From NCBI GenBank assembly GCA_964017155.1, contig OZ024861.1, forward strand, positions 16,529,283-16,593,282: DNA of 64,000 nt, in the 5' to 3' direction. The translations under genes and the position numbers were made by a program. Shown here piece after piece: positions 28,387 through 59,589 of the stretch (position 1 is the first letter of the stretch; each line of letters begins with the position of its first letter). The stretch comes from Oasisia sp. SBJ-2009. Its lineage: Eukaryota > Annelida > Polychaeta > Sabellida > Siboglinidae. The notes beneath the pieces were generated by a model. It made no database searches. It was not told where the DNA came from and saw only the letters and a program-made list of their open reading frames with translations.

Positions 28387-28418
28387 TCATAATCTCGGCC
28401 AAATCCAAACCACATTAA

Positions 28419-28424: not shown

Positions 28425-28734
28425 TAGATATTTACGAAATATTCTAAATCTGAACCACATACGTCAATAATGTTTGCCAATAAATTGGTATAAAAAGGGC
28501 AAATGTAAATATCGGATGTGGAAAACGTGCCTTGAGAAAACATCTGCAGCATATACTGTGCACGTGTTTTTGTTTGTCAAATCACAATTATATATGCTTT
28601 ATGCTCCTCTTATTATCTCCAACATGCTCTCGTGTCTCTAATGACCCTTTATCATATAAGATTATTACAACCATTTATGTGTGATTATGTGCATGCATTA
28701 TACGTGTATATACATTGTTGTTGATGTTATTCTT

Positions 28735-30570: not shown

Positions 30571-32310
30571 TGCTTGACCCCTTACCTACATGGCTGTTAA
30601 AAGACATGAGTGATAACGTAGTACCATTCCAAAGACAACTCATCAATACTTCCATAGCATCTGGTGTTGTTCCGTGCTGCCTGAAACACGCCAATGACAC
30701 TCATGTGCCTAAGAAAGCCAATATCGATCAGGACAATATGAACAATTATCGACCAATATCAAACTTTCCTTTTGTATCAAAGCTACTCGAAAGATACGTT
30801 GCACGCTGCCTGCTTGATCACATGACTGCTAACAATCTCCTTGAAAGATATCAATCAGCATACAAATCTCACCACTCCACGGAAACTGCGCTTGTTCTTG
30901 TACAGAATGACACCGTTGGGGCACTTGGCCGGCGGGGTGGAGTAATTCTTACTCGAAATGTCGACTGCCTTCGATACAGTTAACCATGTAATACTCCTCA
31001 GCCGTTTAGAACATCAGTACGGGATGGTTGGCTCCGTGCTAGCATGGATACCATCATATCTAACCGATCGATCGCAGTGTGTTTATCTACAAGGTGGTGC
31101 TTCCAGCAAAACCGGCGTCGCTTGTGGCGTACCTCAAGGATCGGCGCTGGGACCTCTGTTGTTCTCTGCGTACACAGCTCCTATTGGTGATATTATTAGG
31201 AGGCACAATCTCGGCTTCCACCTATACGCTGATGATACCCAGCTATACATCAAATTTGATATGACAGAAATTAACGTGAATGACGAAAAACGGTCGCACT
31301 TGTGCTATCATCACGCAACAATCGAGCGAACCACAACATCACCGTGATCAAATTTGGCGACTGCGACATAACGCCAAGTACTACTGGCAGAAACATAGGG
31401 GGTATATTTGACACAGAAATGTCAATGGTCAGCCATGTTAAACATGTCTGCTGTACATCATACTAGCATCTAAGAAACATTGCGTCGATCCGATCATGTC
31501 TCTCCCAGAAAGCCGCCGTCCGCCTTGTATATTATCTTGTTATATCGAGAATTGACTACGCGAACTGTCTCCTGTATGATCTCCCCCAGTGCCTAATATC
31601 TAAGCTACAAATAGTCCAACACGCTGCCGCTAGACAAGTGGTCCGCTGCCACAGATGTGAACATATTACACCAGTTCTCATGAAACTACTCTGGCTCCCG
31701 GTGAAACAATGAGTGCAATACTTAATACTGCTACTGGGGTTTCATGCACAACATCGACTGGCGCCACCGTACATCACCGACCTGTTTGAACAAAGAGCTA
31801 CGAGAGTATTACGCTCAACGACAAACAATGACTTCTACGTGCCGCCATGTCGCAGCCGGTACGGTGATAGAATGTTCTCAGTAGCTGGTCCACGACTATG
31901 GAACTCTCTCCCTGCCGAGATGAAGAAAACTTGTTGCCTCGTGACTTTTAAAAGACAATTGTAAACACACCTATTCCGGGCAGTGTATGAAGTGTAGACA
32001 CTTGTCAGTTTATTTAATTTGTATTTAATTGTTATATATTTATTATCTTTTACATGTTTTACATTAATTTTTTCAAAATGTCATACTCATTATTTTATTA
32101 TCAATATAGCATTTATTTTAATAATTATATTTAACTAACTCATTTATTTTATTATTTATCACTATTACATTGTATACATATTTTAGGTATTTCATTTACC
32201 TTAACAAACTTAATATTATAATTCTACGACGCATGTATACACACTCATGTACAGCGCCTCCGAATGGATATTTCTAGATTGATGGCGCTTTATAAATGTT
32301 CTACTTCTTA
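30571..32310 (+). mobile_element. CR1/L2-type LINE, RT and 3' end, source of the array tail
   Basis: Truncated at the 5' end inside the RT region. Read on the plus strand: NNYRPISNFPFVSKLLERYV, STETALVLVQND, a frameshift near 30960, STAFDTVNHVILL, GVPQGSALGPLLFSAY, HLYADDTQLYIKF, and the C-terminal YGDRMFSVAGPRLWNSLPAE ending at 31962. A 3' UTR ends GGCGCTTTATAAATG plus TTATTA. The last about 530 bp recur in every unit of the myosin exon array. Confidence 0.88.
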
Positions 32311-32888
32311 TTATTAAGAAAATGCTTTTTAGAATATGATGTCTTTGGTAATTTCCTCAGTGTTGACTGGGACAGTCTAAGTATGATTGCTATACCAAGG
32401 AATACAAGCGGGGCTTGGAAATATGTCATTCTTGTTGTTGATTGTTTATATTGTAAGTGGATTATGTATGTCGTGTTTGAGACTGTTTTGTTTGTGTTGT
32501 GAATGGTTGGTCTATGTCGTAATTTTGGCGTGAGTTTCGGAGGGTAGAAAATCTGGTATTGGTGCTTTGGGATATCTGTTTACAATCACCAGGGTTGTGT
32601 TTGAATTTCTAACATTTTGGAGGCAAGATGATGATATGTTGAGGCAATCGGGTCGTGGGTTTAAGACAGGAAAAAAGGTTATTACTAAGCGCTTCCCTCA
32701 GGCAACCATCTTACCTCGCACGTGCGCACCCCCAAGAAGTGCTGATGTATTCGTTATGCCAGTCAGCACATCATTTGAATATAGCTATGACCATTAGTTT
32801 TAACTTTATGAGATGTGGATTGTGACTACCAGATATGGAGTTCAAGTTGTTTTGTCCCTGGTTTTGCACTGATGAACGTTGGTTGTAG

Positions 32889-33089
32889 GCGAGTCTGGGG
32901 TGTCCTGATCAGGAGGTCGTGGAGGAGGAGAAGAAACAGAAGTTGGAGGGACAGCACAAGAAGGAGCAGATCGAGAACGCGGAGGGGAAGCGTCAGGCGC
33001 CTGTAGACGAATCACAGTTTACGGATGAGATGTTCGATTTCATCGACACCCACGACAGTGTAAAAGATGGTACTTCCGCCGACTTCGAG
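32889..33089 (+). CDS. myosin VII tail exon, copy A (founder unit)
   Basis: Acceptor GGTTGTAG ends at 32888 and donor GAG|GTCAGG follows 33089; 201 bp, phase 0/0, 67 residues. The first half is a charged helix (EEEKKQKLEGQHKKEQIEN), the second the hinge leading to MyTH4 (PVDESQFTDEMFDFID). In class VII myosins the matching position reads xMVDKMFGFL before a Phe-Glu exon end. This copy has Ser for Arg at residue 2, Lys in THDSVKDG and Asp in TSADFE. Its surroundings (LINE tail upstream, CA repeat downstream) match the array unit, so it is the likely founder. Confidence 0.72.
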
Positions 33090-33408
33090 GTCAGGCTGTC
33101 GTTCTTTACCTTATTGGTTCAGATTGATGGACGGAGGATATATACCATTAGGACAGTTTTAGTTATACTTTTCATTGACAGGTAACACAATAAGGTATGC
33201 ATTTCTGCCAAAGCGTTAATATTTGCGGGACATGACCCAGATAGTTATGTTTCGCTCATGTGCAGAATATGCCAGTGCGACATAAAGCTGAAATTCAGGA
33301 GCCCAAAATGAATTTCTTTGCAACTAAAACATAACACAGATTTGTGTAATACAGAATGTCGGCAATAATAGACCTGACAGATACCTTGCTATCTTGGTAA
33401 TGTAATAC

Positions 33409-33542
33409 ACACACGCACGTACGCACGCATGCACGCACGCACATACTCTACACATACACACATATACACGCACACATATACAAACACGCACACATGTATA
33501 CACACACACATACACACATACACACGCACGCAAACACAAGAA
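33409..33542. repeat. (CA)n-rich tract with ACGC and CATA variants
   Basis: Imperfect CA/ACGC repeat. Its CACGTAC is the point where array units are joined to the LINE tail elsewhere; the same tract returns at 54348-54470 after the last unit. Confidence 0.9.
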
Positions 33543-33607
33543 CATGCATGATGTACTTTATAATAAATAGCCTTGTTGGAAAAAACAGTGAATTGATATA
33601 TATTTCG

Positions 33608-33710
33608 CCTGCGAGGTCAGGCTGTGGATGAGATGTCTGACTTCATCGACACGCACGACATTCTCGTTCTTTACCTTGTTGGGCCAAATTGATGGACGGA
33701 GACCATGTAC
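33608..33710 (+). pseudogene. decayed fragment of the myosin VII tail exon
   Basis: GATGAGATGTCTGACTTCAT followed by CGACACGCACGACATT matches the hinge half of the repeated exon, but the helix half is gone and the 3' end is fused to intron sequence. A similar remnant lies at 54510-54600. Confidence 0.7.
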
Positions 33711-34406
33711 CAATGGGGCATCTTAGTTATACAGATTTGATGATTTATAATTCCGTTTTTTGTTGATTTGTTCAGAAAAATAAACTTATAATTGAAAGGT
33801 AACATTATAAGTTGTTATGCATTCCTGCAAAATCAAATATTTTACGGGACATGACTCGAAAAGTTATTTTTGAGCACCTCAACAGAATATGCCAGTGTGA
33901 CATTGTGTTGAAAATCAGCCGCTGATATGTATTTATTTGCACTAAAAACATAAGACTAAGTTATGTCATTGAGAATGTCGGAAATGTTGACCAATAAATG
34001 TAGTCACTCGACAACACTGTTCTTTATCATACCACCCATTAATATCACTGAAACTAGCCTTTATACTTTTCTACTAACCCATTCTATTTTGGCACAGCCT
34101 CTCATGTGTATTGTAAGTATAAACAGCCTGGAAGCATTCAAAAATATCATCGAATAATTTAGCAATACATGATTTTACACAGCAAACAGTTAGAGATAAT
34201 ATTACATTTTGTTTATATATGTACAGGTTAGTTGTGTTTATAAATTACTTCATGTACATGCAAGTACAGTTCATGTTCGTCTGTGCATCACTACCTGTAC
34301 CGTCAACAAGTTGACGCTACATGGTGTATTGGAAGGACATATTTGAAAAGGTTTTGATATGGCACTAAAATGGACACACATCACATTATATTTAATAGTG
34401 TCCTCG

Positions 34407-34996
34407 CGAACGTACATACGGCGGGCGATCAAAAACACACTTCTACCCCTTAAGATATCTGCTGGGCCCAGTTTCATGAAGCCGTATAATGTTACGCACA
34501 ATTATGCGGTCTACTGGTCGCAGCTAACAGCGAACAGTCAATGCAGCTTACAGGCGGTTTCATGAGACCAATTTAGAATTCGCGCCACTAAATCGCCGTA
34601 GCATTGACCTAGTTAGGTTGCGGTGGGGAATCCCTGTATTTGTGATGTGTATGAACAACCTTTTTCTTTCTAGCTGCCTCCTGTGCCGTTCGCATAGCCA
34701 ATGGGAAGCTATGATGAATGTAAAGGATATACAGTGTAAACATAAAAAATTGTGTTGACAGTGGGCGTGTCGGGAGCATACCGTACATATTTCCATTTCG
34801 GGAGCATACCGTAAATATTTCAACTAACGTAAAGTTACGCTTACTAAATACATGGTGCAGCTAAGTGCAACTATGGAACAGACTCATGAAACGCAACAAG
34901 CACAACTTTGCGACGTTTTAGGTTTTCGACGGGTTATCGCCCGCTACGACGTCGTAAGTTCGCTCCATGAAACTGGGCCCAGAGCGATTAACTAGT
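34407..34996 (+). pseudogene. decayed MyTH4 exon, split by a MITE
   Basis: 34407-34456 (CGAACGTACATACGGCGGGC onward) matches the part of exon 55214-55426 coding TYIRRAIKDPLLPL. It resumes at 34981 (AGAGCGATTAACTAG) where the intact exon has GGTGATCAACTG. The 5' half is missing and the donor is changed to TGAAAA. It is the oldest-looking copy of the MyTH4 exon. Confidence 0.7.
34464..34980. mobile_element. MITE-like element with GGGCCCAGTTTCATGAAG ends
   Basis: 517 bp. The left end GGGCCCAGTTTCATGAAG is matched by the reverse complement of the right end (CTCCATGAAACTGGGCCC). Shorter internal inverted copies (GGTTTCATGAGACC, ACTCATGAAACGC) are present. There is no coding capacity, and it sits inside a decayed MyTH4 exon. 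Confidence 0.75.
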
Positions 34997-35169
34997 GAAA
35001 ATTTCGCATTTTAGGTCTGTGCAGATTTATTCATTATGTCAGACATTACAATGTTTGAATACAATACGTGTAGCTATGAACACTGTTTTTGTTTTATAAA
35101 ATGTGGGTTGTGACTACCAGATATGGAATGCTTCGTTCCTGTTTTTACACTGATGTGCTGTGGTTGTAG

Positions 35170-35367
35170 GCGTGGATGGCCCTCTTTGACATGGAGGTCG
35201 TGGAGGATGAAACCTTGCAGAACTTGGAGCAAAACAAGAAGGAACGGATCGAAGTCACAGAGCAGAAGCGTCAGGCGCCCGTTGATGAATCACAGGTTGT
35301 GCATGATATGTCTGACTTCATCGACACGCACGACATTGTAGAAGATGGTGCTTCCGCCGCCTTCGAG
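35170..35367 (+). CDS. myosin VII tail exon, copy B (most diverged)
   Basis: 198 bp, phase 0/0, 66 residues, with the same acceptor (GTGGTTGTAG) and donor (GAG|GTCAGG). The helix half is strongly changed (AWMALFDMEVVEDETLQNLE, then EQNKKERIEVTEQ), while the hinge is kept (APVDESQVVHDMSDFID, EDGASAAFE). Open frame despite divergence argues that it was under constraint for some time. The preceding intron end (CTGTTTTTACACTGATG) is also conserved. It belongs to an older duplication round than copies D-L. Confidence 0.65.
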
Positions 35368-36203
35368 GTCAGGCTCTCGTCCTTTACCTTCTTGGTTCAG
35401 ATTGATGGACGGAGGATATATATACCAATATGCCAGTACTAGGTTTACAGTTTTGATGATTTATAATTTAGATTTCGGTGATTTGGTAAGAAAAATAAAC
35501 TGTTCACTGAAAGGTAACATTATAAGGTATGCATTCTTGCCAACAAATATATGTTTTTGGGACATTAACCAGTTATTTTTTTGGCAACTGAAACATAACA
35601 CACATTTTTGTAATTGAGAATGTCGGTAATATTGACCTGACATATATCTTGCTGTCTTGGCTTTGTAATGCAAACTCGGACACACGCACGCAATAACGCA
35701 CGCACACATGCACACTACGCACAGAGCATGCATGGAGCACTTTAAAATAAATAGCCTTGTTTGAAAAACCAATGAATCGATATATGTTTCCTATAAATGT
35801 TGTAACTAGAAAACACTGCTTATTATCATACTATATATATATATGCTTTCAACAACCATGTATACTCTAGTCCCCAAAACCATTCTATTTTGGAACTCCC
35901 TTTCTCAATATATTATAAGCATAAACAGCCTGGATCCATTCAAAAATATAATCGACACGTAAATATTAAGATATAAGATTTTAGATCACGAAATGTTGTG
36001 GATATACTTGTGTATGTATTTACCCGTTACTTGTATTTAATAATTACTTACTGTAAATAAAACTACAGTTACAATTCGCTTATGCATCACTAAGTGTATC
36101 GTAAACAGGTGAGACTAAGTGGTGTATTGGAAGGAAATGTGTGAACACATGTGATAAACCAAAACTAAAAGGATACACATCACATCACATTTAATGGCGT
36201 CAT

Positions 36204-36341
36204 TAGTTTCTGGCAGTTCCTGAAGAAGTCGAGGATATTTCTAACAATATTAAGATCAGCAAGTTCGCGGCGTCCTACTTTCAGGGCGGTGCCTTGCACA
36301 AAGCCCCACTTATATCCCTTAAACATTAGAGCGATCAACTG
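36204..36341 (+). pseudogene. decayed MyTH4 exon, second copy
   Basis: Aligns along most of exon 55214-55426: segments match PISEELEDIS, SKFAA(N/S)YFQ, and the end ATCAACTG|GTGAAT keeps the donor position. A deletion removes the SHTYIRRAIKD part and the sequence ACATTAGAGC brings a stop, so it cannot be used. It also preserves the site that is occupied by the MITE in the copy at 34407-34996. Confidence 0.75.
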
Positions 36342-36513
36342 GTGAATATTTGCCCTTGATGTCTGTGCTGGTGTACCCATTATGCCAGGCAGTACACCAT
36401 TTTAATGAAGCTATGACTAGTGTCTTTATCTTCATAAGATGTGGATTGTGAATACAAGACATGGAAATAAAATGATTTGTACCTGTTTTTACACTGATGT
36501 ATGTTGGTTGCAG

Positions 36514-36735
<222 letters not shown>

Positions 36736-37257
36736 CAAGAACATGCATGGTGCACTTTATAATAAATAACCTTGTTGGAAAACCAATTAATCTTTTTTAT
36801 GTTTCATATAAATGTAGTCACTAGACAACATTGTTCCTTATCATACAATATCTCTCTCTTCACCTATGTACATTAATTCTGGGTACCAATCTGAATAATG
36901 TGTCGTCCACTATTTCCGAAAATAAAACTTGTTTAGTGGTAATGACATTCTAAGTTAAGAGTTCACAGTATGTAAAGTGCCTGAGGTAAGTGTTGATAAA
37001 TGTAGCTATGCACACATGTATTTCGATGACTCTGTTTTGGAACTTAAGCGATTTCTAAATTGTCCTTTGTCTTTCGAAAGAGATTCATTGGTTCCTTTTA
37101 TCTGGTGATTGCGTGCGAGGAAGTGAAAGGTTTGTTGTACTTGTTGTATCGCAAGCGCGTGTAGTAGGCTGAACGACAGATGTCAACTGCCAAACACGGA
37201 GGTCAATCAAAAGTAATTTCTTGTTCCTGTTCTGACGTTGATGTGTGTTGGTTGTAG

Positions 37258-37458
37258 GCGCGTCTGGGGTGCCCTGATCAGGAGGTTGTGGAGGAGGAGA
37301 AGAAGCAGAAGTTTGAGGGACAGCACAAGAAGGAGCAGATCGAGAAAGCGGAGAGGGAGCGTCACGCGCGCGTAGACGACTCGCAGATGGTGGACGATAT
37401 GTGTGGCTTCATCGACACCCACAGTATGGAAGACGGTGCCGCCCCAACTGCCTTCAAG
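37258..37458 (+). CDS. myosin VII tail exon, copy C
   Basis: 201 bp, phase 0/0. Residues: KKQKFEGQHKKEQIEKAERE, then ARVDDSQMVDDMCGFID and EDGAAPTAFK. QMVDDMCGF is the form closest to the MVDKMFGF of known MYO7 tails. The donor is AAG|GTATAT, unlike GAG|GTCAGG in all other copies, and the last residue is Lys rather than Glu. Copy C lacks the LINE-tail flank of the array and is probably one of the older copies. Confidence 0.72.
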
Positions 37459-38049
37459 GTATATATCTTGCTCTTCATCTTCTTGATTCACATTGATGGC
37501 TGGGGCTGTGTACCAACTTTCAGTTCTGGTTACACAATTTTGAAGATTCGTGTTCATTTTAGTTTTCAATAATGTTTTGATATTGATATTTTCAATAACT
37601 TATCCTTGAAAGGTAACTAAGTAAGTAGGTAAATATGTAAGTAATTCAGGTATTTATTTCCAACCACAACAATTAAAAATTAGCGCATATTATTGTTTTT
37701 GTTTAATGTTTAAACAAGCCTTTAATTAATTGTTTACATAATTTACATAATTTTGTGCAAGTATACTTTTAATATGCTAATTTGTTATAATACGTAGGCT
37801 TTGTACACTGTGTTGTAAAGTAATTTTTATATTCGTAACCTATTCTTTTCTTTTGTCGTGTAAGCACCCCTGAATCTACATAGTAGAGATATGTAATGTT
37901 GAAATAAAACTGATTTGATTAGTGAACAAATACAATTTGTTAAACAAAAACAACTGTAATTCCAACGAAAGATGTGCTATGAAGTGCCTACATGACGTAG
38001 TGTGTAGCCAGAGTCATTACAACATTATAAGATATGAATTTCTGCCATA
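37459..38049. other. intron after copy C, nothing recognised
   Basis: AT-rich, without exon signals, ending where a rearranged LINE fragment starts (38050). Confidence 0.6.
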
Positions 38050-38595
38050 TCGGTGCTGGGACCTCTGTTGTTCTCTGCGTACACAGCTCCTATCGGTGAT
38101 ATTATTAGGAGGCTGATGATACCCAGCTATACATCAAATTTGATATGACAGAAATTAACGTGAATGAAGAAAAACGGTCGCACTTGTGCTATCATCACGC
38201 AACAATCGAGCGAACCACAACATCACCGTGATCAAATTTGGCGACTGCGACATATCGCCAAGTCCTACTGGCAGAAACATAGGCGTTATATTTGACACAG
38301 AAATGCCAATGGTCAGCCAGCTATCGATAATTGACTACGCGAACTGTCTCATGTATGATCTCCCACAGTGCCTAATATCTTAGCTACAAATAGTCCAACA
38401 CGCTGCCGCTAGACTAGTGGTCCGCTGCCACAGTTGTGAACATATTACACCAGTTCTCAAGAAACTACTCTGGCTCCCGGTGAAACAACGAATGCAATAC
38501 TTAATACTGCTACTGGTGTTTCGTGCACAACATCGACTGGCGCCACCGTACATCACCGACCTGCTTGAACAAAGAGCTACGAGAGTATTACGCTG
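38050..38595 (+). mobile_element. deleted copy of the CR1/L2-type LINE 3' region
   Basis: Matches 31130-31820 of the LINE at 30571-32310 with internal deletions (RT after GCGCTGGGACCTC, loss of part of the palm). At 38595 it joins GGCGTGAGTTTCGGAGG of an array unit, skipping about 760 bp of the usual unit. It is the left border of the array. Confidence 0.8.
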
Positions 38596-38956
38596 GCGTG
38601 AGTTTCGGAGGGTAACAAATCTGGTATTGGTGCTTTGGGATATCTGTTTACAATCACCAGGGTTGTGTTTGAATTTCTAACATTTTGGAGGCAAGATGAT
38701 GATATGTTGAGGCAATCGGGTCGTGGGTTTAAGACAGGAAAAAAGGTTATTACTAAGCGCTTCCCTCAGCCAACCATCTTACCTCGCACGTGCGCACCCC
38801 CAAGAAGTGCTGATGTATTCGTTATGCCAGTCAGCACATCATTTGAATATAGCTATGACCATTGTTTTTAACTTCATAAGATGTGGATTGTGACAACCAG
38901 ATATGGAGTTCAAGTTGTTTTGTCCCTGTTTTTACACTGATGAACGTTGGCTGTAG

Positions 38957-39157
38957 GCGCGTCTGGGGTGCCATGATCAGGAGGTCGTGGAGGAGGAGAA
39001 GAAGCAGAAGTTGGAGGGACAGCACAAGAAGGAGCAGATCGAGAACGCGGATGGGGAGCGTCAGGCGCCTGTAGACGAATCACAGTTTACGGATGAGATG
39101 TCTGATTTCATCGACATCCACGACATTGTAGAAGATGGTGCTTCCGCCGCCTTCGAG
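38957..39157 (+). CDS. myosin VII tail exon, copy D
   Basis: 201 bp, phase 0/0. Like copy E but with CAT for CCT, changing Pro to His in ARLGCPDQ, and CTGTAG instead of TTGTAG at the acceptor. The hinge reads QFTDEMSDFIDIHDIVEDG. It is the first unit of the array; its upstream intron lacks the LINE 3' UTR owing to the deletion at 38595. Confidence 0.72.
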
Positions 39158-40609
39158 GTCAGGCTGTCGTTCTTTACCTTGTTGGTTCAGATTGATGGAC
39201 GGAGGATATATATACCAATAGGACAGTTTTAGTTATACTTTTCATTGAAAGGTAACACAATAAGGTATGCATTTCTGCCAAAGTGTTAATATTTGCGGGA
39301 CATGACCCAGGTAGTTATGTTTCGCTCATGTGCAGAATATGCCAGTGCGACATAAAGTTGAAATTCAGGAGCCCAAAATTGATTTCTTTGTAACTAAAAC
39401 ATAACACAGATTTGTGTAATACAGAATGCCGGCAATATAGACCTGACAGATACCTTGCTCTCTTGGTAATGTTAATACACACACGCACGTACATCACCGA
39501 CCTGCTTGAACAAAGAGCTACGAGAGTATTACGCTCAACGACAAACAATGACTTCTACGTGCCGCCATGTCGCAGCCGGTACGGTGATAGAATGTTCTCA
39601 GTAGCTGGGCATGCCTATGGAACTCTCTCCCTGCCGAGATGAAGAAAACCTGTTGCCTCGTGACTTTTAAAAGACCATTGAAAACACACCTATTCCGGGC
39701 CGTGTATGAAGTGTAGACACTTGTCAGTTTATTTAATTTGTATTTTATTTTTATCTATTTATTATCTTTTACATGTTTTACATTAATTTTTCAAAATGTC
39801 ATACTCATTATTTTATTATCAATATAGCATTTATTTTAATAATTATATTTAACTAAGTCATTTATTTTATTATTTATCACTATTACATTTTACACATATT
39901 TTAGGTATTTTATTTACCTTAACAAACTAAATATTATAATTCTACGACGCATGTATATATATTCATGTACAGCGCCTCCGAATGGATATTTCTATATTGA
40001 TGGCGCTTTATAAATGTTCTTCTTCTTATTATTATTAAGATAATGCTTTTAAGAATGTGATGTCTTTGGTAATTTCCTCAGTGTTGACTGGGACAGTCTA
40101 AGTATGATTGCTATACCATGGAATACAAGCGGGGCTAGGAAAGATGTCATTTTTATTGTTGATTGTTTATATTGTAAGTGGATTCTGTATGTCGTGTTTG
40201 AGACTGGTTTGTTTGTGTTGTGAATGGTTGGTCTATGTCGTAATTTTGGCGTGAGTTTCGGAGGGTAACAAATCTGGTATTGGTGCTTTGGGATATCTGT
40301 TTACAATCACCAGGGTTGTGTTTGAATTTCTAACATTTTGGAGGCAAGATGATGATATGTTGAGGCAATCGGGTCGTGGGTTTAAGACAGGAAAAAAGGT
40401 TATTACTAAGCGCTTCCCTCAGCCAACCATCTTACCTCGCACGTGCGCACCCCCAAGAAGTGCTGATGTATTCGTTATGCCAGTCAGCACATCATTTGAA
40501 TATAGCTATGACCATTGTTTTTAACTTCATAAGATGTGGATTGTGACAACCAGATATGGAGTTCAAGTTGTTTTGTCCCTGTTTTTACACTGATGAACGT
40601 TGGTTGTAG

Positions 40610-40810
40610 GCGCGTCTGGGGTGCCCTGATCAGGAGGTCGTGGAGGAGGAGAAGAAGCAGAAGTTGGAGGGACAGCACAAGAAGGAGCAGATCGAGAACG
40701 CGGATGGGGAGCGTCAGGCGCCTGTAGACGAATCACAGTTTACGGATGAGATGTCTGATTTCATCGACATCCACGACATTGTAGAAGATGGTGCTTCCGC
40801 CGCCTTCGAG
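40610..40810 (+). CDS. myosin VII tail exon, copy E
   Basis: 201 bp, phase 0/0. The flanks are almost identical to copy D over more than a kilobase, so D and E are a recent pair. It shows the array consensus: ARLGCPDQEVVEEEKKQKLE, QHKKEQIENADGERQ, APVDESQFTDEMSDFID. Confidence 0.72.
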
Positions 40811-42264
40811 GTCAGGCTGTCGTTCTTTACCTTGTTGGTTCAGATTGATGGACGGAGGATATATATACCAATAGGACAGTTTTAGTTATACTTTTCATTG
40901 AAAGGTAACACAATAAGGTATGCATTTCTGCCAAAGTGTTAATATTTGCGGGACATGACCCAGGTAGTTATGTTTCGCTCATGTGCAGAATATGCCAGTG
41001 CGACATAAAGTTGAAATTCAGGAGCCCAAAATTGATTTCTTTGTAACTAAAACATAACACAGATTTGTGTAATACAGAATGCCGGCAATATAGACCTGAC
41101 AGATACCTTGCTCTCTTGGTAATGTTAATACACACACGCACGTACATCACCGACCTGCTTGAACAAAGAGCTACGAGAGTATTACGCTCAACGACAAACA
41201 ATGACTTCTACGTGCCGCCATGTCGCAGCCGGTACGGTGATAGAATGTTCTCAGTAGCTGGTCCACGACTATGGAACTCTCTCCCTGCCGAGATGAAGAA
41301 AACTTGTTGCCTCGTGACTTTTAAAAGACAATTGTAAACACACCTATTCCGGGCAGTGTATGAAGTGTAGACACTTGTCAGTTTATTTAATTTGTATTTT
41401 ATTTTTATCTATTTATTATCTTTTACATGTTTTACATTAATTTTTCAAAATGTCATACTCATTATTTTATTATCAATATAGCATTTATTTTAATAATTAT
41501 ATTTAACTAAGTCATTTATTTTATTATTTATCACTATTACATTTTACACATATTTTAGGTATTTTATTTACCTTAACAAACTAAATATTATAATTCTACG
41601 ACGCATGTATATATATTCATGTACAGCGCCTCCGAATGGATATTTCTATATTGATGGCGCTTTATAAATGTTCTTCTTCTTATTATTATTAAGATAATGC
41701 TTTTAAGAATGTGATGTCTTTGGTAATTTCCTCAGTGTTGACTGGGACAGTCTAAGTATGATTGCTATACCATGGAATACAAGCGGGGCTAGGAAAGATG
41801 TCATTTTTATTGTTGATTGTTTATATTGTAAGTGGATTCTGTATGTCGTGTTTGAGACTGGTTTGTTTGTGTTGTGAATGGTTGGTCTATGTCGTAATTT
41901 TGGCGTGAGTTTCGGAGGGTAACAAATCTGGTATTGGTGCTTTGGGATATCGGTTTACAATCACCAGGGTTGTGTTTGAATTTCTAACATTTTGGAGGCA
42001 AGATGATGATATGTTGAGGCAATCGGGTCGTGGGTTTAAGACAGGAAAAAAGGTTATTACTAAGCGCTTCCCTCAGCCAGCCATCTTACCTCGCACGTGC
42101 GCACCCCCCAAGAAGTGCTGATGTATTCGTTATGCCAGTCAGCACATCATTTGAATATAGCTATGACCATTGGTTTTAACTTCATGAGATGTGGATTGTG
42201 ACTACCAGATATGGAGTTCAAGTTGTTTTGTCCCTGGTTTTACACTGATGAACGTTGGTTGTAG

Positions 42265-42465
42265 GCGCGTCTGGGGTGCCCTGATCAGGAGGTCGTGGAG
42301 GAGGAGAAGAAGCAGAAGTTGGAGGGACAGCACAAGAAGGAGCAGATCGAGAACGCGGATGGGGAGCGTCAGGCGCCTGTAGACGAATCACAGTGTACGG
42401 ATGAGATGTATGATTTCATCGACACCCACGACATTGTAGAAGATGGTACTTCCGCCGCCTTCGAG
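42265..42465 (+). CDS. myosin VII tail exon, copy F
   Basis: 201 bp, phase 0/0. The hinge differs: SQCTDEMYDFIDTHDIVEDG followed by TSAAFE. This is the only copy with Cys after Gln and Tyr before Asp. Confidence 0.72.
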
Positions 42466-43917
42466 GTCAGGCTGTCGTTCTTTACCTTATTGGTTCAGAT
42501 TGATGGACGGAGGATATATATACCAATAGGACAGTTTTAGTTATACTTTTCATTGAAAGGTAACACAATAAGGTATGCATTTCTGCCAAAGTGTTAATAT
42601 TTGCGGGACATGACCCAGATAGTTATGTTTCGCTCATGTGCAGAATATGCCAGTGCGACATAAAGTTGAAATTCAGGAGCCCAAAATGAATTTCTTTGCA
42701 ACTAAAACATAACACAGATTTGTGTAATACAGAATGCCGGCAATATAGACCTGACAGATACCTTGCTATCTTGGTAATGTAATACACACACGCACGTACA
42801 TCACCGACCTGCTTGAACAAAGAGCTACGAGAGTATTACGATCAACGACAAACAATGACTTATACGTGCCGCCATGCCGCAGCCGGTACGGTGATAGAAT
42901 GTTCTCAGTAGCTGGTCCACGACTATGGAACTCTCTCCCTGCCGAGATGAAGAAAACCTGTTGCCTCGTGACTTTTAAAAGACCATTGAAAACACACCTA
43001 TTCCGGGCCGTGTATGAAGTGTAGACACTTGTCAGTTTATTTAATTTGTATTTTATTTGTATCTATTTATTATCTTTTACATGTTTTACATTAATTTTTC
43101 AAAATGTCATACTCATTATTTTATTATCAATATAGCATTTATTTTAATAATTATATTTAACTAAGTCATTTATTTTATTATTTATCACTATTACATTTTA
43201 CACATATTTTAGGTATTTTATTTACCTTAACAAACTAAATATTATAATTCTACGACGCATGTATATATACTCATGTACAGCGCCTCCGAATGGATATTTC
43301 TATATTGATGGTGCTTTATAAATGTTCTTCTTATTATTATTATTAAGAGAATGCTTTTAAGAAAGTGATGTCTTTGGTAATTTCCTCAGTGTTGACTGGG
43401 ACAGTCTAAGTATGATTGCTATACCAAGGAATACAAGCGGGGCTTGGAAAGATGTCATTATTGTTGTTGATTGTTTATATTGTAAGTGGATTCTGTATGT
43501 CGTGTTTGAGACTGGTTTGTTTGTGTTGTGAATGGTTGGTCTATGTCGTAATTTTGGCGGGAGTTTCGGAGGGTAACAAATCTGGTATTGGTGCTTTGGG
43601 ATATCGATTTACAATCACCAGGGTTGTGTTTGAATGTCTAACATTTTGGAGGCAAGATGATGATATGTTGAGGCAATCGGGTCGTGGGTTTAAGACAGGA
43701 AAAAAGGTTATTACTAAGCGCTTCCCTCAGCCAGCCATCTTACCTCGCACGTGCGCACCCCCAAGAAGTGCTGATGTATTCGTTATGCCAGTCAGCACAT
43801 CATTTGAATATAGCTATGACCATTGGTTTTAACTTCATGAGATGTGGATTGTGACTACCAGATATGGAGTTCAAGTTGTTTTGTCCCTGTTTTTACACTG
43901 ATGAACGTTGGTTGTAG

Positions 43918-44118
43918 GCGCGTCTGGGGTGCCCTGATCAGGAGGTCGTGGAGGAGGAGAAGAAACAGAAGTTGGAGGGACAGCACAAGAAGGAGCAGAT
44001 CGAGAAGGCGGATGGGGAGCGTCAGGCGCCTGTAGACGAATCACAGTTTACGGATGAGATGTCTGATTTCATTGACATCCACGTCATTGTAGAAGATGGT
44101 GCTTCCGCCGCCTTCGAG
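43918..44118 (+). CDS. myosin VII tail exon, copy G
   Basis: 201 bp, phase 0/0. Replacements: QIEKADGER (Lys for Asn) in the helix and IDIHVIVEDG (Val for Asp) in the hinge. Confidence 0.72.
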
Positions 44119-45570
44119 GTCAGGCTGTCGTTCTTTACCTTATTGGTTCAGATTGATGGACGGAGGATATATATACCAATAGGACAGGTTTAGTTATTCT
44201 TTTCATTGAAAGGTAACACAATAAGGTATGCATTTCTGCCAAAGTGTTAATATTTGCGGGACATGACCCAGATAGTTATGTTTTGCTCATGTGCAGAATA
44301 TGCCAGTGCGACATAAAGTTGAAATTCAGGAGCCCAAAATTGATTTCTTTGTAACTAAAACATAACACAGATTTGTGTAATACAGAATGCCGGCAATATA
44401 GACCTGACAGATACCTTGCTCTCTTGGTAATGTAATACACACACGCACGTACATCACCGACCTGCTTGAACAAAGAGCTACGAGAGTATTACGCTCAACG
44501 ACAAACAATGACTTCTACGTGCCGCCATGTCGCAGCCGGTACGGTGATAGAATGTTCTCAGTAGCTGGTCCACGACTATGGAACTCTCTCCCTGCCGAGA
44601 TGAAGAAAACCTGTTGCCTCGTGTCTTTTAAAAGACCATTGAAAACACACCTACTCCGGGCCGTGTATAAAGTGTAGACACTTATCAGTTTATTTAATTT
44701 GTATTTTATTTTTATATATTTATTATCTTTTACATGTTTTACATTAATTTTTCAAAATGTCATACTCATTATTTTATTATCAATATAGCATTTATTTTAA
44801 TAATTATATTTAACTAAGTCATTTATTTTATTATTTATCACTATTACATTTTACACATATTTTAGGTATTTTATTTACCTTAACAAACTAAATATTATAA
44901 TTCTACGACGCATGTATATATATTCATGTACAGCGCCCCCGAATGGATATTTCTATATTGATGGCGCTTTATAAATGTTCTTCTTCTTATTATTATTAAG
45001 ATAATGCTTTTAAGAATGTGATGTCTTTGGTAATTTCCTCAGTGTTGACTGGGACAGTCTAAGTATGATTGTTATACCATGGAATACAAGCGGGGCTTGG
45101 AAAGATGTCATTCTTGTTGTTGATTGTCTATATTGTAAGTGGAGTATGTATGTCGTGTTTGAGACTGGTTTGTGTGTGTTGTGAATGGTTGGTCTATGAC
45201 GTAATTTTGGCGTGAGTTTCGGAGGGTAACAAATCTGGTATTGGTGCTTTGGGATATCGGTTTACAATCACCAGGGTTGTGTTTGAATTTCTAACATTTT
45301 GGAGGCAAGATGATGGTATGTTGAGGCAATCGCGTCGTGGGTTTAAGACAGGAAAAAAGGTTATTACTAAGCGCTTCCCTCAGCCAACCATCTTACGTCG
45401 CACGTGCGCACCCCCAAGAAGTGCTGATGTATTCGTTATGCCAGTCCGCACATCATTTGAATATAGCTATGACCATTGTTTTTAACTTCATAAGATGTGG
45501 ATTGTGACAACCAGATATGGAGTTCAAGTTGTTTTGTCCCTGTTTTTACACTGATGAACGTTGGTTGTAG

Positions 45571-45771
45571 GCGCGTCTGGGGTGCCCTGATCAGGAGGTC
45601 GTGGAGGAGGAGAAGAAACAGAAGTTGGAGGGACAGCACAAGAAGGAGCAGATCGAGAACGCGGATGGGGAGCGTCAGGCGCCTGTAGACGAATCACAGT
45701 TTACGGATGAGATGTCTGATTTCATCGACATCCACGACATTGTAGAAGATGGTGCTTCCGCCGCCTTCGAG
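45571..45771 (+). CDS. myosin VII tail exon, copy H
   Basis: 201 bp, phase 0/0, same protein as E. The intron after it carries marker changes (ATTGAAGGACGG, CCAATAGCACAG) shared with copies J and K. Confidence 0.72.
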
Positions 45772-47225
45772 GTCAGGCTGTCGTTCTTTACCTTATTGGT
45801 TCAGATTGAAGGACGGAGGATATATATACCAATAGCACAGTTTTAGTTATACTTTTCATTGAAAGGTAACACAATAAGGTATGCATTTCTGCCAAAGTGT
45901 TAATATTTGCGGGACATGACCCAGATAGTTATGTTTCGCTCATGTGCAGAATATGCCAGTGCGACATAAAGTTGAAATTCAGGAGCCCAAAATGAATTTC
46001 TTGGCAACTAAAGCATAACACAGATTTGTGTAATACAGAATGCCGGCAATATAGACCTGACAGATACCTTGCTCTCTTTGTAATGTAATACACACACGCA
46101 CGTAGATCACCGACCTGCTTGAACAAAGAGCTACGAGAGTATTACGCTCAACGACAAACAATGACTTCTACGTGCCGCCATGTCGCAGCCGGTACGGTGA
46201 TAGAATGTTCTCAGTAGCTGGTCCACGACTCTGGAACTCTCTCCCTGCCGAGATGAAGAAAACCTGTTGCCTCGTGACTTTTAAAAGACCATTGAAAACA
46301 CACCTATTCCGGGCCGTGTATGAAGTGTAGACACTTGTCAGTTTATTTAATTTGTATTTTATTTTTATCTATTTATTATCTTTTACATGTTTTACATTAA
46401 TTTTTCAAAATGTCATACTCATTATTTTATTATCAATATAGCATTTATTTTAATAATTATGTTTAACTAACTCATTTATTTTATATTATTTATCACTAAT
46501 ACATTTTACACATATTTTAGGTATTTTATTAACCTTAACAAACTTAATATTATAATTCTACGACGCATGTATACATACTCATGTACAGCGCCTCCGAATG
46601 GATATTTCTATATTGATGGCGCTTTATAAATGTTGTTCTTCTTACTATTATTAAGAGAATGCTTTTAAGAAAGTGATGTCTTTGGTAATTTCCTCAGTGT
46701 TGACTGGGACAGTCTAAGTATGATTGCTATACCAAGGAATACAAGCGGGGCTTGGAAAGATGTCATTCTTGTTGTTGATTGTTTATATTGTAAGTGGATT
46801 CTATATGTCGTGTTTGAGACTGTTTTGTTTGTGTTGTGAATGGTTGGTCTATGTCGTAATTTTGGCGTGAGTTTCGGAGGGTAACAAATCTGGTAATGGT
46901 GCTTTGGGATATCGGTTTACAATCACCAGGGTTGTGTTTGAATTTCTAACATTTTGGAGGCAAGATGATGATATGTTGAGGCAATCGGTTCGTGGGTTTA
47001 AGACAGGAAAAAAGGTTATTACTAAGCGCTCCCCTCAGCCAGCCATCTTACCTCGCACGTGCGCACCCCCAAGAAGTGCTGGTGTATTCGTTATGCCAGT
47101 CAGCACATCATTTGAATATAGCTATGACCATTGGTTTTAACTTCATAAGATGTGGATTGTGACTACCAGATATGGAGTTCAAGTTGTTTTGTCCCTGTTT
47201 TTACACTGATGAACGTTGGTTGTAG

Positions 47226-47426
47226 ACGCGTCTGGGGTGCCCTGATCAGGAGGTCGTGGAGGAGGAGAAGAAGCAGAAGTTGGAGGGACAGCACAAGAAG
47301 GAGCAGATCGAGAACGCGGATGGGGAGCGTCAGGCGCCTGTAGACGAATCACAGTTTACGGATGAGATGTCTGATTTCATCGACACCCACGACATTGTAG
47401 AAGATGGTACTTCCGCCGCCTTCGAG
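47226..47426 (+). CDS. myosin VII tail exon, copy I
   Basis: 201 bp, phase 0/0. The first codon is ACG (Thr) instead of GCG (Ala), just after the acceptor AG. Hinge IDTHDIVEDGTSAAFE. The downstream intron has a longer TATATATATA run shared with copy L. Confidence 0.72.
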
Positions 47427-48885
47427 GTCAGGCTGTCGTTCTTTACCTTATTGGTTCAGATTGATGGACGGAGGATATATATATATACCAATAGGACAGT
47501 TTTAGTTTTAGTTTTCATTGAAAGGTAACACAATAAGGTATGCATTTCTGCCAAAGTGTTAATATTTGCGGGACATGACCCAGATAGTTATGTTTCGCTC
47601 ATGTGCAGGATATGCCAGTGCGACATAAAGTTGAAATTCAGGAGCCCAAAATGAATTTCTTTGCAACTAAAACATAACACAGATTTGTGTAATACAGAAT
47701 GCCGGCAATATAGACCTGACAGATACCTTGCTCTCTTGGTAATGTAATACACACACGCACGTACATCACCGACCTGCTTGAACAAAGAGCTACGAGAGTA
47801 TTACGCTCAACCACAAACAATGACTTCTACGTGCCGCCATGTCGCAGCCGGTACGGTGATAGAATGTTCTCAGTAGCTGGTCCACGACTATGGAACTCTC
47901 TCCCTGCCGAGATGAAGAAAACCTGTTGCCTCGTGACTTTTAAAAGAACATTGAAAACACACCTATTCCGGGCCGTGTATGAAGTGTAGACACTTGTCAG
48001 TTTATTTAATTTGTATTTTATTTTTATCTATTTATTATCTTTTACATGTTTTACATTAATTTTTCAAAATGTCATACTCATTATTTTATTATCAATATAG
48101 CATTTATTTTAATAATTATGTTTAACTAAGTCATTTATTTTATTATTTATCACTATTACATTTTACACATATTTTAGGTATTTTATTTACCTTATCAAAC
48201 TTAATATTATAATTCTACGACGCATGTATATATACTCATGTACAGCGCCTCCGAATGGATATTTCTAAATTGATGGCGCTTTATAAATGTTCTTCTTCTT
48301 ATTATTATTATTAAGAGTATGCTTTTAAGAATGTGATGTCTTTGGTAATTTCCTCAGTTTTGACTGGGACAGTCTAAGTATGATTGCTATGCCAAGGAAT
48401 ACAAGCGGGGCTTGGAAATATGTCATTCTTGTTGTTGATTGTCTATTTTGTAAGTGGATTTTGTATGTCGTGTTTGAGACTGGTTTGTTTGTGTTGTGAA
48501 TGGTTGGTCTATGTCATAATTTTGGCGTGAGTTTCGGAGGGTAACAAATCTGGTATTGGTGCTTTGGGATATCGGTTTACAATCACCAGGGTTGTGTTTG
48601 AATTTCTAAAATTTTGGAGGCAAGATGATGATATGTTGAGGCAATCGGGTCGTGGGTTTAAGACAGGAAAAAAGGTTATTACTAAGCGCTTCCCTCAGCC
48701 AGCCATCTTACCTCGCACGTGCGCACCCCCAAGAAGTGCTGATGTATTCGTTATGCCAGTCAGCACATCATTTGAATATAGCTATGACCATTGTTTTTAA
48801 CTTCATAAGATGTGGATTGTGACAACCAGATATGGAGTTCAAGTTGTTTTGTCCCTGTTTTTACACTGATGAACGTTGGTTGTAG

Positions 48886-49086
48886 GCGCGTCTGGGGTGC
48901 CCTGATCAGGAGGTCGTGGAGGAGGAGAAGAAACAGAAGTTGGAGGGACAGCACAAGAAGGAGCAGATCGAGAACGCGGATGGGGAGCGTCAGGCGCCTG
49001 TAGACGAATCACAGTTTACGGATGAGATGTCTGATTTCATCGACATCCACGACATTGTAGAAGATGGTGCTTCCGCCGCCTTCGAG
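48886..49086 (+). CDS. myosin VII tail exon, copy J
   Basis: 201 bp, phase 0/0; protein as E. The upstream intron (TTTTGACTGGGACAGTC, GATTGTCTATTTTGTAAG) matches that of copy M, and the downstream intron matches H and K. Confidence 0.72.
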
Positions 49087-50542
49087 GTCAGGCTGTCGTT
49101 CTTTACCTTATTGGTTCAGATTGAAGGACGGAGGATATATATACCAATAGCACAGTTTTAGTTATACTTTTCATTGAAAGGTAACACAATAAGGTATGCA
49201 TTTCTGCCAAAGTGTTAATATTTGCGGGACATGACCCAGATAGTTATGTTTCGCTCATGTGCAGAATATGCCAGTGCGACATAAAGTTGAAATTCAGGAG
49301 CCCAAAATGAATTTCTTGGCAACTAAAGCATAACACAGATTTGTGTAATACAGAATGCCGGCAATATAGACCTGACAGATACCTTGCTCTCTTGGTAATG
49401 TAATACACACACGCACGTAGATCACCGACCTGCTTGAACAAAGAGCTACGAGAGTATTACGCTCAACGACAAACAATGACTTCTACGTGCCGCCATGTCG
49501 CAGCCGGTACGGTGATAGAATGTTCTCAGTAGCTGGTCCACGACTCTGGAACTCTCTCCCTGCCGAGATGAAGAAAACCTGTTGCCTCGTGACTTTTAAA
49601 AGACCATTGAAAACACACCTATTCCGGGCCGTGTATGAAGTGTAGACACTTGTCAGTTTATTTAATTTGTATTTTATTTTTATCTATTTATTATCTTTTA
49701 CATGTTTTACATTAATTTTTTTCAAAATGTCATACTCATTATTTTATTATCATTATAGCATTTATTTTAATAATTATATTTAACTAACTCATTTATTTTA
49801 TATTATTTATCACTATTACATTTTACACATATTTTAGGTATTTTATTTACCTTAAAAAACTTAATATTATAATTCTACGACGCATGTATACATACTCATG
49901 TACAGCGCCTACGAATGGATATTTCTATATTGATGGCGCTTTATAAATGTTCTTCTTATTATTATTATTAAGAGAATGCTTTTAAGAATGTGATGTCTTT
50001 GGTAATTTCCTCAGTGTTGACTGGGACAGTCTAAGTATGATTGCTATACCAAGGAATACAAGCGGGGCTTGGAAATATGTCATTCTTGTTGTTGGTTGTT
50101 TATATTGTAAGTGGATTCTATATGTCGTGTTTGAGACTGTTTTGTTTGTGTTGTGAATGGTTGGTCTATGTCGTAATTTTGGCGTGAGTTTCGGAGGGTA
50201 ACAAATCTGGTATTGGTGCTTTGGGATATCGGTTTACAATCACCAGGGTTGTGTTTGAATTTCTAAAATTTTGGAGGCAAGATGATGATATGTTGAGGCA
50301 ATCGGGTCGTGGGTTTAAGACAGGAAAAAAGGTTATTACTAAGCGCTTCCCTCAGCCAGCCATCTTACCTCGCACGTGCGCACCCCCAAGAAGTGCTGAT
50401 GTATTCGTTATGCCAGTCAGCACATCATTTGAATATAGCTATGACCATTGTTTTTAACTTCATAAGATGTGGATTGTGACAACCAGATATGGAGTTCAAG
50501 TTGTTTTGTCCCTGTTTTTACACTGATGAACGTTGGTTGTAG

Positions 50543-50743
50543 GCGCGTCTGGGGTGCCCTGATCAGGAGGTCGTGGAGGAGGAGAAGAAACAGAAGTTGG
50601 AGGGACAGCACAAGAAGGAGCAGATCGAGAACGCGGATGGGGAGCGTCAGGCGCCTGTAGACGAATCACAGTTTACGGATGAGATGTCTGATTTCATCGA
50701 CATCCACGACATTGTAGAAGATGGTGCTTCCGCCGCCTTCGAG
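50543..50743 (+). CDS. myosin VII tail exon, copy K
   Basis: 201 bp, phase 0/0; protein as E. It lies 4972 bp after copy H and shares H's downstream marker changes, as expected for a three-unit block duplication. Confidence 0.72.
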
Positions 50744-52198
50744 GTCAGGCTGTCGTTCTTTACCTTATTGGTTCAGATTGAAGGACGGAGGATATATATA
50801 CCAATAGCACAGTTTTAGTTATACTTTTCATTGAAAGGTAACACAATAAGGTATGCATTTCTGCCAAAGTGTTAATATTTGCGGGACATGACCCAGATAG
50901 TTATGTTTCGCTCATGTGCAGAATATGCCAGTGCGACATAAAGTTGAAATTCAGGAGCCCAAAATGAATTTCTTGGCAACTAAAGCATAACACAGATTTG
51001 TGTAATACAGAATGCCGGCAATATAGACCTGACAGATACCTTGCTCTCTTGGTAATGTTAATACACACACGCACGTACATCACCGACCTGCTTGAACAAA
51101 GAGCTACGAGAGTATTACGCCCAACGACAAACAATGACTTCTACGTGCCGCCATGTCGCAGCCGGTACGGTGATAGAATGTTCTCAGTAGCTGGTCCACG
51201 ACTCTGGAACTCTCTCCCTGCCGAGATGAAGAAAACCTGTTGCCTCGTGACTTTTAAAAGACCATTGAAAACACACCTATTCCGGGCCGTGTATGAAGTG
51301 TAGACACTTGTCAGTTTATTTAATTTGTATTTTATTTTTATCTATTTATTATCTTTTACATGTTTTACATTAATTTTTCAAAATGTCATACTCATTATTT
51401 TATTATCAATATAGCATTTATTTTAATAATTATGTTTAACTAACTCATTTATTTTATATTATTTATCACTAATACATTTTACACATATTTTAGGTATTTT
51501 ATTAACCTTAACAAACTTAATATTATAATTCTACGACGCATGTATACATACTCATGTACAGCGCCTCCGAATGGATATTTCTATATTGATGGCGCTTTAT
51601 AAATGTTCTTCTTCTTATTATTATTAAGAGAATGCTTTTAAGAAAGTGATGTCTTTGGTAATGTCCTCAGTGTTGACTGGGACAGACTAAGTATGATTGC
51701 TATACCAAGGAATACAAGCGGGGCTTGGAAAGATGTCATTCTTGTTGTTGATTGTTTATATTGTAAGTGGATTCTATATGTTGTGTTTGAGACTGTTTTT
51801 TTTGTGTTGTGAATGGTTGGTCTATGTCGTAATTTTGGCGTGAGTTTCGGAGGGTAACAAATCTGGTAATGGTGCTTTGGGATATCGGTTTACAATCACC
51901 AGGGTTGTGTTTGAATTTCTAACAGTTTGGAGGCAAGATGATGATATGTTGAGGCAATCGGTTCGTGGGTTTAAGACAGGAAAAAAGGTTATTACTAAGC
52001 GCTCCCCTCAGCCAGCCATCTTACCTCGCACGTGCGCACCCCCAAGAAGTGCTGGTGTATTCGTTATGCCAGGCAGCACATCATTTGAATATAGCTATGA
52101 CCATTGGTTTTAACTTCATAAGATGTGGATTGTGACTACCAGATATGGAGTTCAAGTTGTTTTGTCCCTGTTTTTACACTGATGAACGTTGGTTGTAG

Positions 52199-52399
52199 GC
52201 GCGTCTGGGGTGCCCTGATCAGGAGGTCGTGGAGGAGGAGAAGAAGCAGAAGTTGGAGGGACAACACAAGAAGGAGCAGATCGAGAACGCGGATGGGGAG
52301 CGTCAGGCGCCTGTAGACGAATCACAGTTTACGGATGAGATGTCTGATTTCATCGACACCCACGACATTGTAGAAGATGGTACTTCCGCCGCCTTCGAG
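52199..52399 (+). CDS. myosin VII tail exon, copy L
   Basis: 201 bp, phase 0/0; protein as copy I apart from the first codon (Ala here). It lies 4973 bp after I. Silent CAG-to-CAA change in the GQHKKEQ segment. Confidence 0.72.
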
Positions 52400-53858
52400 G
52401 TCAGGCTGTCGTTCTTTACCTTATTGGTTCAGATTGATGGACGGAGGATATATATATATACCAATAGGACAGTTTTAGTTTTAGTTTTCATTGAAAGGTA
52501 ACACAATAAGGTATGCATTTCTGCCAAAGTGTTAATATTTGCGGGACATGACCCAGATAGTTATGTTTCGCTCATGTGCAGGATATGCCAGTGCGACATA
52601 AAGTTGAAATTCAGGAGCCCAAAATTAATTTCTTTGCAACTAAAACATAACACAGATTTGTGTAATACAGAATGCCGGCAATATAGACCTGACAGATACC
52701 TTGCTCTCTTGGTAATGTAATACACACACGCACGTACATCACCGACCTGCTTGAACAAAGAGCTACGAGGGTGTTACGCTCAACCACAAACAATGACTTC
52801 TACGTGCCGCCATGTCGCAGCCGGTACGGTGATAGAATGTTCTCAGTAGCTGGTCCACGACTATGGAACTCTCTCCCTGCCGAGATGAAGAAAACCTGTT
52901 GCCTCGTGACTTTTAAAAGAACATTGAAAACACACCTATTCCGGGCCGTGTATGAAGTGTAGACACTTGTCAGTTTATTTAATTTGTATTTTATTTTTAT
53001 CTATTTATTATCTTTTACATGTTTTACATTAATTTTTCAAAATGTCATACTCATTATTTTATTATCAATATAGCATTTATTTTAATAATTATGTTTAACT
53101 AAGTCATTTATTTTATTATTTATCACTATTACATTTTACACATATTTTAGGTATTTTATTTACCTTATCAAACTTAATATTATAATTCTACGACGCATGT
53201 ATATATACTCATGTACAGCGCCTCCGAATGGATATTTCTAAATTGATGGCGCTTTATAAATGTTCTTCTTCTTATTATTATTATTAAGAGTATGCTTTTA
53301 AGAATGTGATGTCTTTGGTAATTTCCTCAGTTTTGACTGGGACAGTCTAAGTATGATTGCTATGCCAAGGAATACAAGCGGGGCTTGGAAATATGTCATT
53401 CTTGTTGTTGATTGTCTATTTTGTAAGTGGATTTTGTATGTCGTGTTTGAGACTGGTTTGTTTGTGTTGTGAATGGTTGGTCTATGTCGTAATTTTGGCG
53501 TGAGTTTCGGAGGGTAACAAATCTGGTATTGGTGCTTTGGGATATCTGTTTACAATCACCAGGGTTGTGTGTGAATTTCTAACATTTTGGAGGCAAGATG
53601 ATGATATGTTGAGGCAATCGGGTCGTGGGTTTAAGACAGGAAAAAAGGTTATTACTAAGCGCTCCCCTCAGCCAGCCATCTTACCTCGCACGTGCGCACC
53701 CCCAAGAAGTGCTGGTGTATTCGTTATGCCAGGCAGCACATCATTTGAATATAGCTATGACCATTGGTTTTAACTTCATAAGATGTGGATTGTGACTACC
53801 AGATATGGAGTTCAAGTTGTTTTGTCCCTGTTTTTACACTGATGAACGTTGGTTGTAG

Positions 53859-54059
53859 GCGCGTCTGGGGTGCCCTGATCAGGAGGTCGTGGAGGAGGAG
53901 AAGAAGCAGAAGTTGGAGGGACAGCACAAGAAGGAGCAGATCGAGAACGCGGATGGGGAGCGTCAGGCGCCTGTAGACGAATCACAGATGGTGGACGATA
54001 TGTGTGGCTTCATCGACACCCACGTCAGTGTAGAAGATGGTGCTTCCGCCGCCTTCGAG
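53859..54059 (+). CDS. myosin VII tail exon, copy M (last, nearest MyTH4)
   Basis: 201 bp, phase 0/0. The helix half equals the array consensus, but the hinge reads SQMVDDMCGFIDTHVSVEDG, the MYO7-like form seen in copy C. The end SAAFE joins in frame to DLEEGRR of the exon at 55214, reproducing the FE-DLE junction found in vertebrate MYO7A. It is the most likely constitutive exon; its 5' half was probably homogenised by conversion with the array. Confidence 0.78.
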
Positions 54060-54509: not shown

Positions 54510-54600
54510 CTGCGAAGTCAGGCTAAGGATGAGACGTCTGACTTCATCGACACGCACGACTTTCTCGTTATTTACCTTGTTGGGCCAAATTGATTGCCAC
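54510..54600 (+). pseudogene. decayed fragment of the myosin VII tail exon
   Basis: GATGAGACGTCTGACTTCAT plus CGACACGCACGAC, parallel to 33608-33710. It shows that the segment from LINE tail to this remnant was copied as a block. Confidence 0.65.

Positions 54601-59493: not shown

Positions 59494-59589
<96 letters not shown>

Follow-up and report, generated by a model that had tools for sequence, protein, structure and literature searches.

The 64,000-nucleotide (nt) stretch of DNA analysed here (C8:16529283-16593282, hereafter the window), from the vestimentiferan tubeworm Oasisia sp. SBJ-2009, holds a 5'-truncated paralog of the class VII myosin gene MYO7, which we call P1, and not the animal's main MYO7 gene. 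A first-pass annotation had taken the locus for the animal's myosin VII gene, with thirteen copies of one tail exon among which splicing might choose as in Dscam; the exon copies are real, the identification of the gene does not hold, and the suggested choice finds no support. P1 is probably best explained as an apparently motorless MYO7 paralog carrying a recent ten-copy exon array, and, to judge from its sequence, P1 most likely still is a motorless tail gene or was one until recently. One or more copies may be spliced to the MyTH4 exon at 55214, and frame-neutral inclusion or skipping of copies is possible too.

The repeated exon, which we call the hinge exon, lies between window positions 32889 and 54059. 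It has 66 or 67 codons and occurs in 13 open copies, all of phase 0/0 and on the forward strand, with AG directly before and GT directly after the exon in 13 of 13, so that the earlier description of in-frame copies with their own acceptors and donors stands. We label the copies A (32889-33089, type 1), B (35170-35367, type 2, a relative of exon P2_2 described below), C (37258-37458), D (38957-39157, in a partial repeat unit), E (40610-40810), F (42265-42465), G (43918-44118), H (45571-45771), I (47226-47426), J (48886-49086), K (50543-50743), L (52199-52399) and M (53859-54059); D to M make up the array, of which M is the last. The length of 67 residues per copy given by the first-pass annotation applies to all of these except B, which has 66 codons. 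Its statement that the exon is always open is true of the thirteen but not of every copy, since broken pieces exist on the same strand: the start of a copy cut off by a CA repeat (36514-36533), a fragment of a type-2 exon (33618-33661) and a further exon fragment (54516-54560). The donor reads GAG/gtcagg in 12 of the 13 copies (the slash marks the exon end) and AAG/gtatat in copy C, compared with AAG/gtcagt in the main gene. Translation of copies E, H, J and K gives one and the same sequence, so that the 13 copies yield 10 different peptides. Searches with Rfam (gathering scores) and a tRNA scan returned no match.

By tblastn the hinge exon corresponds to residues 902-968 of a 1773-residue protein of the vestimentiferan tubeworm Ridgeia piscesae, the closest protein (89%), and the next exons to residues 969-1039 and 1040-1068 (residue numbers throughout are those of the Ridgeia protein); for the exon at 55214, matches to structures of MYO7A and MYO7B were obtained. 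By this homology the hinge exon belongs to a class VII myosin and stands directly before its first MyTH4 exon, as had been proposed. The main MYO7 gene lies 8.8 Mb away, at C8:25.388-25.418 Mb, where it is collinear and open from residue 334 (the start of the DNA covered) into the tail. It gives 26 collinear matches to the Ridgeia protein, a count that leaves out two weak matches (34-35%) between pieces of the tail and the second MyTH4-FERM and the rows for Capitella; 19 of the 26 are at 93-100% identity, several of the other seven extend into an intron, and some motor exons differ from Ridgeia. In the 30 kb covered, the hinge exon is present exactly once, at C8:25397569-25397769, between its two neighbours.

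P1, by comparison, has no recognisable motor or IQ exons. The residues concerned (1-896) have no match at E <= 0.001 in 264 kb around the window, including 123 kb upstream of the array, and none at E < 0.5 (tblastn) within the window. The exon for the single alpha-helix (SAH, residues 866-901) is present only as a stub at 37147-37180 on the forward strand, consisting of its first nucleotides, with no AG before them, and running into a TAG. This stub and pieces of intron precede copy C, and 623 bp around that exon align to the main gene at 81%; as copy C also has the lowest synonymous divergence (dS) from the main-gene exon (0.16, the other copies lying at 0.43-1.1), we take it to be the cognate exon of P1. 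The copies of the hinge exon are the first complete MYO7 exons of P1, and exons for MyTH4, FERM and SH3 come next. The MyTH4 exon (969-1039) is at 55214-55426, open, with ttccttcag before and gtgagg after it, and the next exon (1040-1068) at 59494-59580, both on the forward strand; further tail exons lie past the window at C8:16600846-16625949. After copy C there are 11 tail exons up to residue 1655, the last nine beyond the window, and AG and GT are kept in all of them. In the joined tail Pfam recognises MyTH4, RA-like, FERM and SH3 domains. The exon after SH3 (1656-1697) contains two stops, and a second MyTH4-FERM was not found in P1, later exons occurring, as far as C8:16703282, only on the other strand, in a locus that we call P2. 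Forward-strand remnants accompany the open exons: a degenerate MYO7 SH3 exon (1598-1649) at 28180-28329 (tblastn and blastn), upstream of the array though later in the protein, and decayed MyTH4 exons (969-1039) at 34397-34452, in the block of copy A, and at 36210-36345, in the block of copy B, the latter with a deletion and a stop. The introns of P1 at 56057-59310 and 59655-62804, on either side of the exon at 59494, contain retrotransposons lacking long terminal repeats (non-LTR; RVT_1, with an endonuclease match below the cut-off).

The tail of P1 has kept its reading frame. Copy C and the tail exons as far as residue 1655, 11 in number, are free of the frameshifts and stops that would mark a pseudogene. 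Compared with the main gene over 726 codons, stop-bearing exon included, dS is 0.131, the nonsynonymous divergence (dN) 0.036 and their ratio w 0.27 (0.19-0.40), with single-exon values of w from 0.08 to 0.97. Copy C and the 11 tail exons (the stop-bearing exon being left out of this count) have two indels, of 3 and 9 nt, in 2261 nt, whereas the introns have 57 in 4979 nt, 40 of them frameshifting; had P1 been neutral since the split, about 9 frameshifts would be expected with half of the indels on its side, and none is seen. A further tail copy, P3, shows the same pattern, with no indel in 1566 exon nt (a fused exon pair left out) and 35 in 2415 intron nt, 25 of them frameshifting. Along the path between P1 and P3, nonsynonymous changes make up 79 of 128 (P 0.003), and about 19 frameshifts are expected with none seen in 521 codons. 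Gene conversion limited to exons was considered as the reason for the kept frames and rejected: dS (0.131 for P1, 0.114 for P3) is about equal to intron divergence (0.123 and 0.125), P3 being slightly lower, which speaks against it. Since frames are kept far better than in introns, through the greater part of their history the tails of P1 and P3 were most likely translated and the two loci most likely acted as motorless tail genes. The combination found, a tail with no motor detected and with a reading frame under selection, is that expected of a headless MyTH4-FERM myosin.

The hinge exon has been multiplied outside the window as well. A genome search with the array exon gave at least 19 matches (E <= 0.01), all on C8 and none with stops, at least 13 in the window, one in the main gene, two in P2 and three in P3; these counts are lower bounds, and the broken pieces in the window are not among the matches. 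P2 is an inverted, partly deleted MYO7 tail copy at C8:16646158-16657117, in which two open hinge exons (P2_1 and P2_2) stand before one MyTH4 exon and for which the 264-kb search found no exon for residues 1267-1637. P3, at C8:25451293-25463888, lies about 34 kb past the last main-gene exon seen and repeats the order of P1: an SH3 remnant is followed by a type-1 exon, a type-2 exon (P3_2) without its 5' half, a MyTH4 exon that is dead, a truncated SAH exon, the cognate 902 exon and the live tail. Two of its exons are fused in frame by a deletion, and no head exon was found in the preceding 14 kb at E <= 0.05. Window positions 26005-28759 are collinear with P3 at about 86% (blastn), and blocks after 28759 match it in order at 67-78%, short pieces excepted. 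As P1 and P3 have this layout in common, the motorless layout would most simply predate their split. Another MyTH4 exon fragment, of 36 residues, lies at C8:15157126-15157233.

In a tree of hinge exons, B groups with P2_2 (support 0.88) and P2_1 comes next, A and E stand apart, and C joins the main gene (0.998). In the window, the blocks of A and B each match the P2 arrangement, and the donor gtcagtct is kept in P2_1, P2_2 and P3_1. There are thus two older types of hinge exon, and they stand before the tail in P1, P2 and P3. The five short indels recognised in exons of these types (3, 12, 15, 18 and 15 nt) are all multiples of three, for which the chance is about 0.002, or 0.007 if the two 15-nt indels are one event, as they may be; the count does not include the loss of the 5' half of P3_2. 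For E, B, P2_1 and P2_2, 9.2 frameshifts are expected and none is seen, in a count of recognisable copies only. The decay of the MyTH4 exon beside the open copies A and B would fit use of these copies with the live exon at 55214.

The array itself is a more recent feature. From the exon start at 38957 to that at 53859, ten units of about 1655 bp follow one another head to tail by self-blast, the first of them partial and the other nine full. They are alike end to end through exon and intron, as in a tandem repeat array; near-identical 1.65-kb tandem units of this kind are not due to chance. Pairwise differences among the ten units amount to 0.2-4.2% of the sites aligned, with D and M covered over part of the unit only. 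Variable sites among E to L number 10 of 201 in the exon and 101 of 1446 in the flanks, and the exon figure becomes 26 of 201 when A and M are added. The array is younger than the two older exon types, and its exon is no more conserved than its flanks. As to dN/dS among the copies, the exons of D to L have undergone 3 synonymous and 8 nonsynonymous changes (neutral P 0.52), with no sign of selection for difference. Under neutrality 0.78 frameshifts and 0.46 stops would be expected in the array, so that its open frames by themselves say nothing. Copy M holds one stretch that resembles copy C, perhaps a gene-conversion tract.

A possible source of the unit is visible upstream. At 31768-33422, on the forward strand, self-blast identifies a progenitor-like unit made up of the 3' end of a non-LTR retrotransposon, intron, copy A, and intron as far as a CA-rich microsatellite; an RVT_1 match at 30540-31344 lies just upstream of it. 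At the unit junctions the CA-rich microsatellite behind the exon meets the retrotransposon 3' end. A 1.65-kb unit of retrotransposon 3' end, type-1 exon and CA microsatellite was amplified in tandem to ten copies within an intron of P1; we infer that the first extra unit arose when microsatellite and retrotransposon end were joined and that unequal crossing-over then multiplied it. Unequal crossing-over yields long-unit tandem repeats, which the array resembles in its units of about 1655 bp, similar over exon and intron; unlike in such repeats, every unit here has an open exon with splice sites. P1 may make a tail-only protein, for which splicing might connect the exon at 55214 to a single interchangeable copy or to a few of them and skip the others; a charged segment at the N terminus would then vary in length, and no choice would be made among distinct variants.

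A number of observations weigh against this explanation of P1. A head more than 123 kb upstream would lie beyond the search, and beyond the window an SAH exon that is short and diverged could escape its cut-off. The blocks between the SH3 remnant and the tail are only 67-78% alike in P1 and P3, so that the common layout may hide later rearrangement, and parts of two exons are lost in P3, whose dS is also slightly below its intron divergence. The frame test on the 902 exon covers only copies that were recognised by being open, and broken pieces exist. In addition, the exon after SH3 has two stops, w on the P1 branch is about 0.37 on only 10 synonymous and 10 nonsynonymous changes, and w reaches 0.70 in copy C and 0.97 in tail exon 1267; P1 may accordingly have died recently. 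Placement on branches is uncertain too, 6 nonsynonymous changes having fallen on the main-gene side because P1 and P2 share states.

One alternative is that P1 is now a pseudogene and the array simply a repeat in which an exon chances to lie, with nothing spliced or translated. We consider this unlikely, though it would account for the lack of detected motor exons and the SAH stub, for the stops after SH3, for an array exon that varies as much as its flanks and for the decayed MyTH4 remnants beside copies A and B; a protein-collection search for proteins of 303-962 residues with the array exon likewise gave 13 candidates, none at E <= 0.001. It does not account for the absence of frameshifts from 2261 coding nt next to 40 in 4979 intron nt, for w of 0.27, for the AG and GT kept in all 11 tail exons to residue 1655, or for the same pattern in P3. 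At the other extreme, P1 and P3 could be working motorless MYO7 tail genes, perhaps competitors of the motor, with the N-terminal arm of P1 tunable in copy number through cassette exons and unequal crossing-over; we put this forward as a tentative extension, itself rather doubtful.

Regulated splicing that picks one copy or a set number of copies is still less probable. Phase 0/0 and AG-GT in all 13 open copies, the two divergent exon types that have stayed open in P1, P2 and partly P3, and the five indels in multiples of three are what an exon-choice cluster would show, but the array copies are almost identical, four of them in protein entirely so, and they have changed as if neutral, so that a Dscam-like choice would offer little; moreover, their donors have changed to gtcagg, no complete upstream MYO7 exon from which to splice was found, and the main gene has a single copy. 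A false expansion of tandem copies in the assembly is very improbable: units D and E do differ at only 2 of 1000 compared sites, but most pairs of units differ by 1-4%, and the older copies A, B and C, together with those at the separate loci P2 and P3, are evidence of multiplication of the exon in any case. Hardly tenable, finally, is a full-length myosin VII gene with an exon array in the window. The ordered tail exons downstream of the array speak for this interpretation, which we rejected on account of the collinear MYO7 with one such exon at C8:25.388-25.418 Mb and because no head was found at the window locus, 123 kb upstream of the array included.

With the tail half of MYO7A, P1 shares the MyTH4, FERM and SH3 domains and the exon order and boundaries of the main gene; it differs in having no motor or IQ exon found, an SAH stub, stops after SH3 and a multicopy hinge exon. 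Another parallel is headless myosin X (Hdl-Myo10), described in PMC6345916 as a tail-only MyTH4-FERM isoform that may negatively regulate the full-length protein. Hdl-Myo10 is a MyTH4-FERM myosin tail with no motor, as P1 would be, but it is an isoform of one gene, whereas P1 is a separate paralogous locus and a putative tail gene. Tandem exon duplication is common and often linked to mutually exclusive choice, according to PMC9013439 and PMC2257972, and the Dscam1 and arthropod Mhc clusters treated there resemble P1 in having phase-compatible tandem exon copies ahead of one constant exon. The window does contain tandem homologous exons of equal phase with their own splice sites, as in Dscam. 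It differs from those clusters in that the array copies are nearly identical, with no selection for difference seen, and belong to a truncated paralog; the divergence typical of Dscam is absent from the array, while the older copies A, B and C do differ. Among the titles listed from the open-licence literature, none describes a myosin VII with an exon array, in keeping with what the first-pass annotation had supposed.

Elsewhere in the window, positions 4392-16511 and 16511-27244 form a tandem segmental duplication of about 11-12 kb, with aligned pieces 89-97% alike, which contains parts of a frame resembling a retroelement along with a long minisatellite. Long minisatellites with several open frames lie at 9826-11367 and 22998-24049 and look like repeats, not genes, and a 291-residue open frame at 2604-3476 has no Pfam match at E <= 0.01.

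If P1 is transcribed, selection would be acting on a myosin VII gene that lacks the motor, a tail-only form, occurring in nature, of a motor of hearing and vision, and it would show the beginning of an exon array, in which near-identical recent copies stand beside two older in-frame types. If it is not, the locus would caution against taking every array of in-frame exons for an exon-choice cluster.

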